Source of the DNA: Azospirillum sp. B510
GTDB lineage: Bacteria > Pseudomonadota > Alphaproteobacteria > Azospirillales > Azospirillaceae
Direction: 5' to 3'
NCBI RefSeq assembly: GCF_000010725.1
Contig: NC_013854.1
Location: 1,641,001-1,705,000 of the forward strand
DNA: 64,000 nucleotides
The notes beneath the pieces were generated by a model, which made no database searches, was not told the DNA's origin, and saw nothing but the letters and a program-made list of their open reading frames with translations. This document shows, piece by piece, positions 25,049-28,936 of this stretch. Position 1 is the stretch's first letter. Every line of letters starts with the position of its first letter. Made by a program: the position numbers and the translations under genes.

Positions 25049-26470
25049 TCAAACGATCCGGAAGTTCTTGAACTGCCAGGGATCATCCTCGTCGATGTCC
25101 TCCGGGAACAGGACATTGCGGTCCTGCAAGGGAGTCCAGTCGCCATAGGCGCCGACGACCTCGCCCAGATAGGGGGTGGCGATGTCCAGCACCCGGCGGA
25201 AGTCCACCTCGTCCGGTTCGACCACGCCCCGATTCGGGTTCTCCAGCGTCCAGATGATGCCGCCCAGCACGGTGGAGGTCACCTGCATCGAGGTTGCGTT
25301 GTTGTAGGGAGCGAGCGACCTTGCGGTATCGATGTCGAGCCGCGAACCATACCAGTAGGCGCCCTTGGCATGGCCCATCAGCAGCACGCCAAGCTCGTCC
25401 ATGCCGCCGGTGATCTCATGCATCATCAGCCGCTGTTCGGCCTGCATGTTGAAGTTCTTGCCGGCCAGCTCGTGCAGCGACATCACCGCGTCGTCGCAGG
25501 GGTGGTAGGCATAGTGGCAGGTCGGGCGGTAGACGACGCGGTCGCCGTCGCGCACCGTGAAATAGTCGGAAATCGAGATGGCCTCGCTGTGGGTGATGAG
25601 GAAGCCGTGGAACGGCCCCTCCAGCGGGGTCCAGGTGCGCACGCGCGTGGCCGCACCCGGCCGCATCAGATAGATGGCGGCATCGCAACCGAATTCGTGC
25701 CGGCGCCCGTCGGACGGCAGTCCCTTCTCGTGGGTGCCCCAGCCGAGTTCGGCCGGCTGGCAGCCTTCGCCGACGAAACCGTCGATCGACCAGGTGTTGA
25801 CGAATTCGCCGATCTGCTTGGGCTGGTTCGACACCTGGGTGTCGCGCTCCGCCACATGGATGGTCTTGATGCCCAGCTTCTGCGCCAGCCGGCCCCAGCC
25901 GTCGCGGTCGGTCGGAATCTCGGTCGCGACGCCGGTGTCGGCGGCGATGTTCAGCAGCGCCTGCTTGACGAAATGCGAGACCAGACCCGGATTCGCGCCA
26001 TGGGTGATCAGCGCGGTCGGACCGCCCTCATACCGGCCGCGCAGCGCCAGCGCCGATTCGCGCAGGGCGTAGTTGGAGCGCAGCGACGGCGACAGGCTGG
26101 AATCGGTGTAGCCGCCCGCCCACGGTTCGGTGCAGGTGTCAGTATAGAAGGCGCCGACCCGCTGGCAGAATTCGATCAACGCGATCGACGAGACGTCGAC
26201 CGACAGGTTGACCAGAAAATCGCCCTTGTCGATCAGCGGCTTCAGAATCTGGAAGAAATTGTCGTTGTCGAGCGGGTTGTTATGGAAGGCGACGCCGTAA
26301 AGCTCGGCCTCCTCGCGTCCGCGCTCCTCGGCGGTGACGATGGTGATCCGGTCAGCCGTAAGTCCGTCGATATGACGGAGAAGCAGTGGCAAAACACCCT
26401 GGCCAATCGAACCGAATCCAACGATGACCATGCGGCCTGTGAACGTGCAGAGCTTCGTGTCCAGGGCCAT
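25049..26470 (-). CDS. hss: Homospermidine synthase
   Basis: 473 residues, the usual length. The N-terminal NAD-binding motif 'VIVGFGSIGQGVLPLLLRHI' and 'NLSVDVSSIALIEFCQRVGA', 'CTEPWAGGYTD', 'ITHGANPGLVSHFVKQAL' and 'DYFTVRDGDRVVYRPTCHYA' are characteristic of bacterial homospermidine synthase. The enzyme makes sym-homospermidine from putrescine with NAD+ as a hydride carrier. The ornithine decarboxylase 143 bp upstream on the same strand would supply putrescine. A GGGGAG ribosome site lies about 10 bases before the ATG. The gap allows a separate promoter, but a shared transcript is likely. Confidence 0.96.
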   Translation of the reverse strand: MALDTKLCTFTGRMVIVGFGSIGQGVLPLLLRHIDGLTADRITIVTAEERGREEAELYGVAFHNNPLDNDNFFQILKPLIDKGDFLVNLSVDVSSIALIEFCQRVGAFYTDTCTEPWAGGYTDSSLSPSLRSNYALRESALALRGRYEGGPTALITHGANPGLVSHFVKQALLNIAADTGVATEIPTDRDGWGRLAQKLGIKTIHVAERDTQVSNQPKQIGEFVNTWSIDGFVGEGCQPAELGWGTHEKGLPSDGRRHEFGCDAAIYLMRPGAATRVRTWTPLEGPFHGFLITHSEAISISDYFTVRDGDRVVYRPTCHYAYHPCDDAVMSLHELAGKNFNMQAEQRLMMHEITGGMDELGVLLMGHAKGAYWYGSRLDIDTARSLAPYNNATSMQVTSTVLGGIIWTLENPNRGVVEPDEVDFRRVLDIATPYLGEVVGAYGDWTPLQDRNVLFPEDIDEDDPWQFKNFRIV

Positions 26471-26613: not shown

Positions 26614-27897
26614 TCACGCGGCGCAGGAGCGAAGCTGGTAACCGGGCGTGGCGAGCAGGGGGGCGTCCGACACTTCGACGACGCGCGCCTGGTCGAACCC
26701 GTTGAAGGCGGTGCGCAGGCAGGAGCCATAGGCACCGAGCTGTCCCAGCTCGATCCAGTCGCCGGCCTTGACGTCGGCCGGCAGGATGAAGGGGCCGGCC
26801 ATCTTGTCGGCGCTGTCGCAGGTCGGGCCGTAGAAGCTGAAGGCCGCCTCGCCGTTGTCGCCCATCGCCTCGAACGGGCGGATCAGCCGGGCCGGAAAGC
26901 GGAAGCCGGGCACGCCGGCATCCGACAGGGCACCATAGACGCCGTCATTGATGAACAGCTCGTCGCCGCGCCGCTTCACCACCTGCACCACCAGCGAGAC
27001 GCCGGGGGCGACCAGCGCGCGGCCGGGCTCGCACCACAGGCGGCAGTGCGACGGCAGGTCGATGGACGCGACGCCGCGGGCGATGGCGGCCATGAAGTCG
27101 CCGAGCGGCGGCGGGGTGACGCCGGGATAGGACACCGGAAAACCACCGCCGACATCCAGCATGTCGATGGCGACGCCGCTTTCGGCGATGACATAGCCGG
27201 CCAGCGCGATGGCGCGCTCATAGGCCGACGGGTCGAGCATCTGCGAGCCGACATGGAAGGACAGCCCGACCTTCGGCGCCACCGCGCGGGCGGCGCGCAG
27301 CAGCTCCACCGCGTCGGTCAGGGAGGCGCCGAACTTGCCGGACAGGTCATAGACGGCGTTGCCCTTCGGCAGGGCGAGGCGGATGACCAGACCGAGGTCG
27401 GCGGCGTTGCCGCTCTCCTCAAGGATCTTGGTCAGCTCCTCCTGGCTGTCGAGCACGAAATCGCGCACGCCATATTGATGGTAGGCGTTGCGGATGGCCT
27501 GACGGCCCTTGACCGGGTGCATGTAATGCAGCACGGCGTCGGGAAACATCTGGCGGATCAGGCGGATCTCGCCGGGAGAGGCGACGTCGAAATGGCGCAC
27601 CCCGCCGGCCCACAGGGCGCGCAGCACCGCCGGCTCCGGGTTGCATTTCACGGCATAGAGCACGTCGCCGCCACGGCCGACCGCATCGGCGGCTTCGGTG
27701 AAGGCGGCCAGGAAGCTGTCGGCGGTGTCGGCCAGGACGCCGGGGCGGATGCAGTGCATCGGCTCTTCCGGGCGGTGCAGGGCGACGGCCTGGGCCACGG
27801 TGGACCGGCGGCCGCTGGCCAGCGAAACGGCGCTGCTGTCGTTCAGGCCGACGCGGCGCAGCGGGGTGACGGCGGAACGGGAACGCAGGAAACCCAT
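26614..27897 (-). CDS. Ornithine decarboxylase (type III fold, PLP-dependent)
   Basis: 427 residues. The PLP lysine is in 'YAVKCNPEP' (Lys84). Other conserved parts are 'HVGSQMLDP', 'LDVGGGFPVSYPG' (the phosphate-binding glycines), 'WCEPGRALVAPG' and 'YGPTCDSADKMAG' with the active-site cysteine. This is the eukaryote-like ornithine (or lysine/ornithine) decarboxylase of alphaproteobacteria. It makes putrescine, which the downstream homospermidine synthase would use. The start ATG at 27897 has AGGAG 7 bases upstream. A long structured leader precedes it and suggests control at the RNA level. Confidence 0.94.
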   Translation of the reverse strand: MGFLRSRSAVTPLRRVGLNDSSAVSLASGRRSTVAQAVALHRPEEPMHCIRPGVLADTADSFLAAFTEAADAVGRGGDVLYAVKCNPEPAVLRALWAGGVRHFDVASPGEIRLIRQMFPDAVLHYMHPVKGRQAIRNAYHQYGVRDFVLDSQEELTKILEESGNAADLGLVIRLALPKGNAVYDLSGKFGASLTDAVELLRAARAVAPKVGLSFHVGSQMLDPSAYERAIALAGYVIAESGVAIDMLDVGGGFPVSYPGVTPPPLGDFMAAIARGVASIDLPSHCRLWCEPGRALVAPGVSLVVQVVKRRGDELFINDGVYGALSDAGVPGFRFPARLIRPFEAMGDNGEAAFSFYGPTCDSADKMAGPFILPADVKAGDWIELGQLGAYGSCLRTAFNGFDQARVVEVSDAPLLATPGYQLRSCAA

Positions 27898-28051
27898 GGC
27901 GCACTCCTATCCCCGGACGGCGACATCAGGCCGGTCCGGTGAGCAGACGGCGATCCCCGAGCCGCACCACGAAGCGGCCAGCACGGAGCTTGGGCGCGGG
28001 TGGCGCAGCGGAATCGCCGATTGATCGGATTTTGAAGGGGGGGGGAGACGG

Positions 28052-28074
28052 AAAAAGCCGGTGCGAGCAGCGGC
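28052..28074 (-). terminator. Possible weak intrinsic terminator / attenuator
   Basis: On the minus strand GCCG (28074-28071) pairs with CGGC (28060-28057) around a 10-base loop and is followed by five T (28056-28052). It lies directly after the leader stem, where an attenuator would be expected. The stem is short. Confidence 0.3.
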
Positions 28075-28078
28075 CCCG

Positions 28079-28140
28079 GGCTGTGAAGCTCCAGGCAACA
28101 GCGCGTCGTTTACCGGCTAGAAAGCTACCGTCTCACAGCC
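28079..28140 (-). ncRNA. Candidate cis-regulatory RNA stem (speF-like)
   Basis: On the minus strand GGCTGTGA (28140-28133) pairs perfectly with TCACAGCC (28086-28079). It encloses a smaller hairpin CGG-TAG-CTTT-CTA-G-CCG and the single-stranded-looking GTAAACGACGCGC. The arrangement is that of a small structured leader element. Confidence 0.5.
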
Positions 28141-28160
28141 CCACCGTGGGCAGCGTACAT
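28125..28160 (-). CDS. Possible leader peptide of 11 residues
   Basis: Reads M-Y-A-A-H-G-G-A-V-R-R then TAG. GGGAGG lies 5 bases before its ATG, a very good ribosome site. The last two sense codons are AGA CGG, two arginines with AGA rare in such GC-rich genomes. These codons overlap the upper arm of the stem formed by 28133-28140, so a ribosome held there would prevent that stem. The position, 228 bases before the decarboxylase start, fits a regulatory uORF. Conservation is unknown. Confidence 0.45.
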   Translation of the reverse strand: MYAAHGGAVRR

Positions 28161-28372
28161 ACTGACCTCCCTCTCGGGACCGACCCACTGGAATGGTCGG
28201 TTCTGCCAAAAAGGACGCGGTACGTCGTAGCATAACCACAGAGGGCCATAGGCACGTGCGGGTGCGTCGTGCCGTTTGATTTACGCTTTTCCGCCCGTGA
28301 TTCAAGTGAATTTTTTGGGGCGGGAAGCGGGCGGGACCGGGGCGATGCCGGCGGGACGGGCGGGAGAAGATG

Positions 28373-28936
28373 TCAGGCGGTCTTTGCCGCGGCTGTCTCG
28401 AACGGCGGGAAGCGGGCGGCGATGCTGTCGCCGGTCGGACGTGCAACCCAGCCATTCGCTAGCATGAAGAAGCGGATGGTCGTGAAGCGGGGCTGCCGGC
28501 CCATGTCGAACCAATGCGGCGTACCGGCGGGAACGCTCAACAGGTCGCCCGCTTCGCAGACCACGCGGAAAACCCGGTTGCTGACGTGGATGTGGAAGGC
28601 GCCGGCCCCCTCGACGAAAAAGCGCGCCTCATCCTCGTCATGGGTATGCTCATCGAGGAATTTGGCGCGCAGATCGGCGACGCCCTCGGTCTGCGGGGTG
28701 ACGCGCACCACGTCGACGGTGCGGTAACGGCGGGCGGCCTTCAACCGCTCGATCGGGTCGGCATAGGCCGCCAGCACCGTTGCGCCGTCGGCGGAGGCGG
28801 GCAGGGGGACGTCGGCCGCCCAGCGCTCGAACAGGATGCCGTTATGGGCCAGATGCCCGGTCATCAGCGCGGGGTCGGCGGTGCTCAATTCCGGCCGATG
28901 GGCGTCGTTCTCCAAATAGACGGTCAGGTGACTCAC
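28373..28936 (-). CDS. mtnD: Acireductone dioxygenase
   Basis: 187 residues from a GTG at 28936 with a GGGAG site upstream. Metal ligands of the cupin are clear: His97, His99 and Glu103 in 'EHTHDEDEARFF', and His141 in 'VPAGTPHWFD'. The enzyme oxidises acireductone to 2-keto-4-methylthiobutyrate in the methionine salvage pathway (the Fe form). The Ni form gives an off-pathway product. No other salvage gene is adjacent. It lies upstream of, and on the same strand as, the polyamine genes, with the long leader between them. Confidence 0.94.
   Translation of the reverse strand: MSHLTVYLENDAHRPELSTADPALMTGHLAHNGILFERWAADVPLPASADGATVLAAYADPIERLKAARRYRTVDVVRVTPQTEGVADLRAKFLDEHTHDEDEARFFVEGAGAFHIHVSNRVFRVVCEAGDLLSVPAGTPHWFDMGRQPRFTTIRFFMLANGWVARPTGDSIAARFPPFETAAAKTA

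Follow-up and report, generated by a model that had tools for sequence, protein, structure and literature searches.

A predicted speF-type leader RNA with a sequestered ribosome site and a short upstream open reading frame ahead of an ornithine decarboxylase operon of Azospirillum sp. B510

The operon of ornithine decarboxylase and homospermidine synthase (ODC-hss) of Azospirillum sp. B510 would open with a divergent cis-regulatory RNA of the speF type, in which a polyamine-related signal gates a sequestered ribosome site and translation of an 11-codon upstream open reading frame (uORF) relays the signal to the operon. This reading of a window of 64,000 nucleotides (NC_013854.1, positions 1,641,001 to 1,705,000) is regarded as reasonably, though by no means firmly, probable. 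The first approximately 105 nt of the RNA, termed Domain I, would comprise a highly conserved P1/P2 part beside P3, a helix in which a U-rich anti-Shine-Dalgarno (anti-SD) strand is paired to the Shine-Dalgarno sequence (SD) of the uORF. The signal, for which either the RNA or a protein would be the sensor, would open or close P3, and the state of P3 would decide ribosome loading at the uORF site. Ribosomes that translate the uORF as far as its stop would then reshape or shield the approximately 220 nt that follow, for instance in that the pairing of AGCCGGU with ACCGGCU is prevented or Rho is held off, and the expression level of ODC-hss would thus be set by uORF translation. Transcription attenuation at a U run and peptide arrest by longer uORFs would be compatible additions. 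Comparison of loci shows the relation to speF, a conserved and covarying sequestration of the SD, conservation of the uORF, and re-use of the same SD for either a uORF or a decarboxylase according to lineage; translation of the uORF in the cell, the signal, the sign of the effect, and the coupling step are what we infer.

Azospirillum-like bacteria are known as plant-growth promoters. Of 45 genomes of the genus, 42 contain a closely similar ODC with 75% identity or more. In the window, the decarboxylase of 427 amino acids is encoded on the minus strand (26614..27897). Its matches to pyridoxal-dependent ornithine/lysine decarboxylases (PF02784, E 7.6e-38; PDB lysine/ornithine decarboxylase 5gjm, E 2.4e-48) bear out the gene assignment of an earlier note, which had been made from the letters of the window alone; against NCBIfam, matches stay below the curated cut-offs. 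The Pfam and PDB families fit the COG0019 label of this ODC type. A sequence resembling a ribosome site, GGAUAGGAG, precedes the ODC start (27904..27912, minus strand), and a homospermidine synthase of 473 amino acids follows downstream on the same strand (25049..26470; PDB homospermidine synthase, E 1.7e-172; PF16653 and PF03435).

Domain I extends from the GACGC 5' strand to the uORF start (28154..28274, minus strand) and is delimited by model R1, which was built from 39 of 61 distinct module sequences aligned by sequence alone (alignment A1). The match of R1 to the window leader (G000:C1:1669154-1669274; 125.2 bits, E 2e-26) is that of a sequence which is itself one of the 39. Scanning with RF00518, which the earlier note had proposed as a check, found nothing in the window above the gathering threshold; across the leader (27800-28420), no Rfam family reaches gathering, and speF (RF00518) is absent even at E<=10. 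With stricter filters, RF00518 is above cut-off in none of 82 genomes of the family and in 11 of 337 genomes of the class. R1, in turn, recovers all 13 fetched RF00518 matches (L032-L044; 11 above the Rfam cut-off) with E-values between 3.9e-8 and 5.7e-4. At E<=0.1, it finds 60 of the 80 named canonical-ODC loci, always on the sense strand and upstream; that the other 20 have no match counts against the favored explanation, as does a stray match on the opposite strand in L109 (E 0.0097). R1 matches number 82, spread over 62 of 385 genomes of the class; in a sample of the phylum, matches are found in nine of 299 genomes, all nine from the class of the window organism. Four matches were set aside, namely L170, in which no anchor was found, L188, G257:C173, and G447:C104. 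A sub-threshold RF00518 match within the family (G052, L031) was discarded, its contig differing from that of its ODC. Among eleven listed second decarboxylase copies, the five that were read (L090-L094) have no module.

The scores of R1 fall gradually into the leaders of Rhizobiales, among which Mesorhizobium locus L236 reaches 22.6 bits (E 0.0032); such weak scores likewise count against the favored explanation. Rfam recognizes two elements there, alpha-r45 at 866-1011 and speF at 1021-1165, 9 nt apart, and the weak R1 match (860-1068) lies across their boundary; L236 is the only one of 15 scanned R1-positive loci that RF00518 recognizes. Positions 866-1165 of L236 are perhaps one leader that has been catalogued twice. 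On the window leader, alpha-r45 (RF02347) gives the Rfam match with the highest bit score at E<=10, covering the 5' half of the module (28211..28267, minus strand); at 14.8 bits and E 1.4, with a gathering threshold of 40, this match is at chance level when taken alone. Sub-threshold alpha-r45 matches recur at the module in four of 12 other leaders (L080, L083, and L084, E 0.012-0.04; L157, E 2.1). These comparisons lead to the conclusion that the alpha-r45/speF leader has a compact and divergent relative in the window leader. The surmise of the earlier note that this might be speF motif RNA with an overlooked peptide is thereby supported, since R1 links the leader to RF00518 and the uORF is conserved. 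A further-reaching proposition, only tentative when its parts are taken jointly, would be that the alphaproteobacterial speF leader and alpha-r45 are halves of one ancient RNA of the polyamine regulon with a single ribosome site as output, which serves a short leader ORF, a longer peptide with a conserved C-terminus, or ODC itself. The leader peptide would be the working sensor or relay in many lineages outside the Rhizobiales, and alpha-r45 would be the attenuated 5' product.

The consensus structure of Domain I has, besides P1 (GACGC:GCGUC) and a small P2, an inner helix (CG.CGUGC:GC.ACG.CG) and P3, in which CUUUUU is paired with the purines of the SD beneath a covarying apical stem. In the window, the 5' strand of P1 is at 28264..28268 and its consensus partner at 28218-28214, while the anti-SD strand CUUUUUGG of P3 (helix 4) occupies 28206..28213, all on the minus strand. 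A pattern match alone identifies a terminator-like hairpin at 28214..28226 (minus strand), GACG-UACCG-CGUC, followed by a run of five U (28208-28212) that doubles as the anti-SD strand. In A1, 97.6% of the cells are paired, two-sided changes occur in eight of 29 pairs, and none of 500 shuffles reaches any of five measures. In alignment A4, whose 91 hand-picked loci were fitted to the model and are hence biased towards it, such changes are seen in 19 of 29 pairs, among them five of six in the anti-SD:SD helix 4. Conservation and covariation are strongest 5' of the uORF AUG. P3 matches part of the bulged 3' stem-loop of about 80 nt in the 2005 description of speF, the rest of which was compared by eye. 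When the free window leader is folded as a single sequence, the SD has a mean unpaired probability of 0.10; the same fold shifts the pairing of the SD by one position from the consensus register and lacks the consensus P1, both of which count against the favored explanation.

The uORF had been described in the earlier note as an 11-codon ORF with a strong ribosome site and an AGA CGG TAG end, and it is found exactly so at 28160-28125 on the minus strand. Its 11 codons and stop (AUGUACGCUGCCCACGGUGGGGCUGUGAGACGGUAG, 28125..28160) encode MYAAHGGAVRR, and the AGA and CGG codons ahead of UAG are at 28128..28133. The SD, GAGAGGGAGG (28166..28175, minus strand), is the 3' strand of P3 and leaves 5 nt between GGAGG and AUG; 227 nt separate the uORF stop from the ODC AUG. 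All 42 leaders of the same genus that were examined keep the uORF. Their penultimate codon is AGA throughout, never exchanged for another Arg codon, the last one is CGG in 39 and CCG in three, and UAG (38) and UAA (4) serve as stops. In other genera of the family, the uORF is kept in 31 of 33 loci, the two remaining ones being at a contig edge (L062) or having no leader (L089). Over 73 mutually related leaders, which comprise 50 distinct sequences across the first 60 nt, 46 of the 50 have their first frame 0 stop at codon 11 or 12; in the other four, it is at codons 17, 17, 28, and 31. UAG (28), UAA (16), and UGA (6) all occur as frame 0 stops. First stops in the non-zero frames are more scattered, with modes of frame 1 at 8 (19/50) and 0 (10/50). 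Because the frame 0 stop clusters while three stop codons are used and the other frames scatter, the start, the ribosome site, the approximate length, and the stop of the uORF are probably under selection, and its residues less so. Outside the genus, the peptides drift from MYAAHGGAVRR to MFAIGQRALER, MLDIGQKALVP, MLSTIKRAVKR, MNACFLGKAVRA, and MNAVMPKGAMLG, which counts against the favored explanation. The Arg-Arg end is nearly genus-bound, being present in 39 of 42 genus uORFs, in two of 30 from other family genera (two of 31 if L088, ending in Ser-Ala, is included), and in none of the 56 remaining loci, which belong to other families except for four second copies in genomes of the genus and family; L121, L128, and L144 had been left out before counting, as they are the same places as L097, L095, and L104. 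The leader alignment suggested in the earlier note thus upholds the ORF and AGA CGG within the genus, and Arg-Arg fails beyond it. Since AGA is invariant although a crude set of 30 window ORFs, with 14,632 codons in all, contains it only twice, slow decoding at this codon may contribute.

To judge from 146 loci classified by script, the ribosome site of the module serves different ends. A separate uORF follows it in 128 loci, in 119 with the main start located and in nine by ORF length alone; 14 loci run from the start codon at this site, or from one nearby, into the decarboxylase, and four are of other kinds. At least 11 loci run from the module SD into the decarboxylase (L106, L134, L138, L147, L156, L158, L165, L166, L173, L175, and L183), L111, L169, and L184 having been dropped from the 14 as their start may not be the module's own. 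In L106 and L107, the ODC start is directly 3' of the module. In nine loci (L134, L138, L147, L156, L158, L165, L166, L173, and L175), the uORF frame continues as an N-terminal extension of the decarboxylase, in the manner of a fusion; L132 is a related copy of such fused loci that has retained the stop. The genes behind the module comprise ODC of the Azospirillum type, canonical ODC, homospermidine-synthase-like genes, and a SpeD-SpeE operon (L159), so that polyamine genes lie downstream in most of the loci looked at; exceptions are L143, with a glutamine amidotransferase frame, and L155, without a Pfam match. The homospermidine-synthase-like genes were recognized by Pfam in L135, L145, L151, and L177 and by translation only in L152 and L157, and ODC lies behind such a gene in L151 (by Pfam) and L177 (by translation). 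The uORFs in leaders of this group comprise 14 codons, for example MNGHAPAPHPRTNR (L177) and MFGPVLAPPPRIER (L151). The 14-codon uORFs of L135, L145, L151, L152, and L177 are loosely related to one another, and those of L146 and L176, whose downstream gene was not seen, are similar. Because homospermidine-synthase-like and SpeD-SpeE genes have the same module, an end-product signal, and polyamine status rather than arginine, would be expected. The genome of the window contains the module once more (L161, G000:C1:700131-700260 within the region 698500-700400), ahead of an ODC of the canonical type; this second copy lacks the U run, and its uORF has 40 codons and ends in QSSIGGLSA.

Canonical ODCs of several lineages are preceded by uORFs of about 30-60 codons, which have common ends in groups or, in other cases, no such end. 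GR[EK]NPLSS is found near the C-terminus in L190, L191, L199, L201, and L142, PSSIG ends in L194-L197 and L200, SSMRAPD ends in L139, L149, L171, L172, and L193, and TSI or SSI ends in L160, L162, L189, L213, and L214, with the reservation that some loci are one record fetched twice, for example L149 and L193. In the five GR[EK]NPLSS loci, the codons of this motif differ at third positions only, the E/K codon excepted, the last codon being AGT in every case. In 14 of 15 uORF pairs, which were hand-picked, have sequences in common, and are not independent, pN/pS is below 1 (0.31-0.89); the pair L161-L247, with 1.18, counts against the favored explanation. By this substitution pattern, the longer uORFs look protein-coding. 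The GR[EK]NPLSS uORFs are candidates for a family of leader or arrest peptides. Two loci from genomes of family f119 (L105 and L108) have long uORFs ahead of an ODC of the window type, with the common C-terminus SFYLQLQH and otherwise different sequences; these may resemble enterobacterial SpeFL, a likeness that is given no weight. Loci of the Rhizobiales type have no common uORF at the equivalent place, which again counts against the favored explanation. A uORF starting from a conserved UUG was considered for these and rejected, as the ORFs found among 15 loci, three of which gave none, span 12-100 codons without a common end.

Behind the uORF, two pairings come into question. The earlier note had pointed to a perfect stem of 8 bp (28133-28140 with 28079-28086), which is present and extends to 9 bp (28133..28141 with 28078..28086, minus strand). 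In the 21 genus leaders used for the stem tests, out of 35 distinct ones, its outer four pairs are kept in 20 or all 21, while the inner five are unpaired in four to ten. Pairing and covariation of this stem beat most shuffles, nine to 80 of 500 reaching the observed values, and in the single-sequence fold, its probability is 0.00. As the core of an attenuator, the stem was therefore rejected, its outer pairs being kept and its inner ones not. The hairpin with five T, also noted earlier, corresponds to ACCGGCU (28062-28056), which runs into a stretch of five U in all (28056-28052; together 28052..28062, minus strand) and can pair with AGCCGGU behind the uORF stop (28112..28118, minus strand). 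The core of this pairing, AGCCGG:CCGGCU, is formed in 87.1% of the cells of the 21 genus leaders; covariation of AGCCGGU:ACCGGCU does not exceed that of shuffles in these leaders, nor does that of the local alternative GGGCU:AGCCC or that of GAGACGG:CCGUCUC, and the U run varies within the genus and is not kept. With assumed ribosome footprints, a ribosome placed in silico at the uORF stop lowers the probability of AGCCGGU:ACCGGCU from 0.99 to 0.00. With a ribosome on the uORF start and a transcript ending at the U run, this pairing has a probability of 0.52 and the 9-bp stem one of 0.46, and with a ribosome at the AGA codon of the shorter transcript, the former has 0.85. On the whole leader, it remains at 0.99 with the ribosome on the uORF start, which counts against the favored explanation. 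The pairings behind the uORF are weakly supported, which, like the variation in the U run of the terminator-like hairpin, counts against the favored explanation.

In a model of arginine-responsive attenuation that develops the interpretation of the earlier note, a ribosome pausing at AGA-CGG when charged tRNA-Arg is scarce would favor another downstream stem and thereby alter transcription or translation of ODC, as in the Salmonella speF leader. The invariant AGA and nearly invariant CGG of the genus, the rarity of AGA in the window, and the 9-bp stem that beats most shuffles all speak for it, as does the sensing of arginine by Salmonella orf34 through AGG-CGG (reported in a section of PMC6386406). 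The nearly genus-bound occurrence of Arg-Arg was the reason for rejecting it as the main reading; the poorly kept inner pairs of the stem and the presence of the module ahead of homospermidine-synthase-like and SpeD-SpeE genes also argue against it, and an AGA that is never swapped for another Arg codon would suit RNA pairing equally. Arginine attenuation is consequently held to be very unlikely. What the earlier note had observed is confirmed, and its interpretation is partly supported: a ribosome at the stop does alter folding in silico, and the Arg codons do not emerge as the site of control. Of the features whose loss beside a preserved stem it had named as adverse to its reading, ORF and ribosome site are kept and the Arg-Arg end is nearly genus-bound; the stem itself is kept in its outer pairs only.

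Another explanation would let the RNA act alone, as a riboswitch or a protein-binding leader affecting transcription or translation, with the uORF as a harmless by-product of an exposed site. The concentration of conservation and covariation upstream of the AUG fits this, and so does the drift of the peptide between genera; a frame 0 stop that stays near codons 11-12 with three stop codons in use, and long uORFs of which some vary almost solely at third positions near their C-termini, speak against a by-product, and this explanation is considered rather unlikely. Still less probability is given to transcription attenuation, compatible with the favored mechanism, in which the 5' hairpin and U run would terminate and release an alpha-r45-like sRNA, and read-through RNA would mask the ribosome site with the U run. 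The adjoining of alpha-r45 and speF in Mesorhizobium L236, with a weak R1 match spanning their boundary, and the terminator-like hairpin with U5 at 28226-28214 support it, as does expression of alpha-r45 apart from the speF leader in Bartonella (so described in a portion of PMC7717549); against it, L161 and similar copies without the U run keep both module and uORF. Arrest of the ribosome by the nascent uORF peptide on ornithine or polyamine would be reminiscent of SpeFL, the E. coli name of orf34. It would draw on the common C-termini GR[EK]NPLSS, PSSIG, and SSMRAPD of longer uORFs elsewhere and on the long uORF of the second copy in the window's genome. It is very unlikely; the peptide of the window has only 11 residues, in a sequence that is not kept across genera.

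The gating of a sequestered ribosome site by a polyamine-related signal may be set beside several known systems. The Salmonella speF ODC presumably belongs to a different ODC family from that of the window. Like the window leader, RF00518 speF has CGCACGUGCC, GCAACGACG, and an AGAGG strand opposite a U-rich one, and it lies upstream of COG0019 ODC in alphaproteobacteria (as given in part of PMC1273637); unlike it, the window type ends in an SD and an AUG uORF, serves another ODC clade, and escapes the Rfam model. For the A. tumefaciens speF RNA, Corbino et al. tried six metabolites and report no ligand among them (PMC1273637), which counts against the favored explanation; homospermidine is not one of the six. 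Later work describes the function of speF as unclear or, as in PMC11477304, finds no strict evidence of a riboswitch, and the word speF does not occur in PMC10853860. The hairpin of alpha-r45 RF02347 is the counterpart of the module's 5' half; in distinction from the window leader, to which its match is far below gathering, alpha-r45 is catalogued as an sRNA. In S. meliloti, smrC45 has been linked with the speF locus (PMC2573895).

Precedents for ODC leaders that are linked to uORFs are the odc1 uORF motif and Salmonella orf34. The odc1 motif (uORF-25-1), for which part of PMC8632094 contains reporter data in E. coli, likewise is an alphaproteobacterial ODC leader with a stem-sequestered ribosome-binding site and an 11-residue uORF; it differs in its UUG starts for both uORF and ODC, the 2 nt between them, and its conserved peptide, as outlined there, whereas the window has an AUG uORF that stops 227 nt ahead of the ODC AUG. 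Homology to odc1 was rejected, since R1 gives chance scores only, even unfiltered, on L119, which has paired UUG codons by eye and is itself without an odc1 match in Rfam 15. Salmonella orf34 resembles the window uORF in its position ahead of an ODC gene and its consecutive Arg codons, and differs in its length of 34 codons, in which the Arg codons that do the sensing are numbers 12-13; when orf34 is translated, termination by Rho is prevented (PMC6386406). Atypical B12 riboswitches of Mycobacterium also couple a structured RNA to uORF translation, with another RNA, ligand, and set of genes (from an excerpt of PMC11260477). Among the matches listed from the open-licence PMC literature, none besides odc1 concerns a uORF in a speF element. 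On this comparative picture, the speF element described in 2005 would become a concrete device, common to ODC, homospermidine-synthase-like, and SpeD-SpeE genes, in which the ribosome site is sequestered and drives either a leader ORF or the decarboxylase. The comparison links the separately catalogued alpha-r45 and speF, extends both to lineages not recognized by Rfam, and brings forward candidates for leader peptides, and control of polyamine production by speF becomes testable.

Immediately 5' of the module, an alignment of 30 genus leaders has a conserved block, CACTTGAA...GCGTAAAT (28279..28310, minus strand). A search for the sigma-70 consensus pattern gave no match in this block, which is possibly a candidate promoter. 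Further upstream of the leader and on the same strand, the gene at positions 28373-28996 matches acireductone dioxygenase (ARD, PF03079), an enzyme of methionine salvage.
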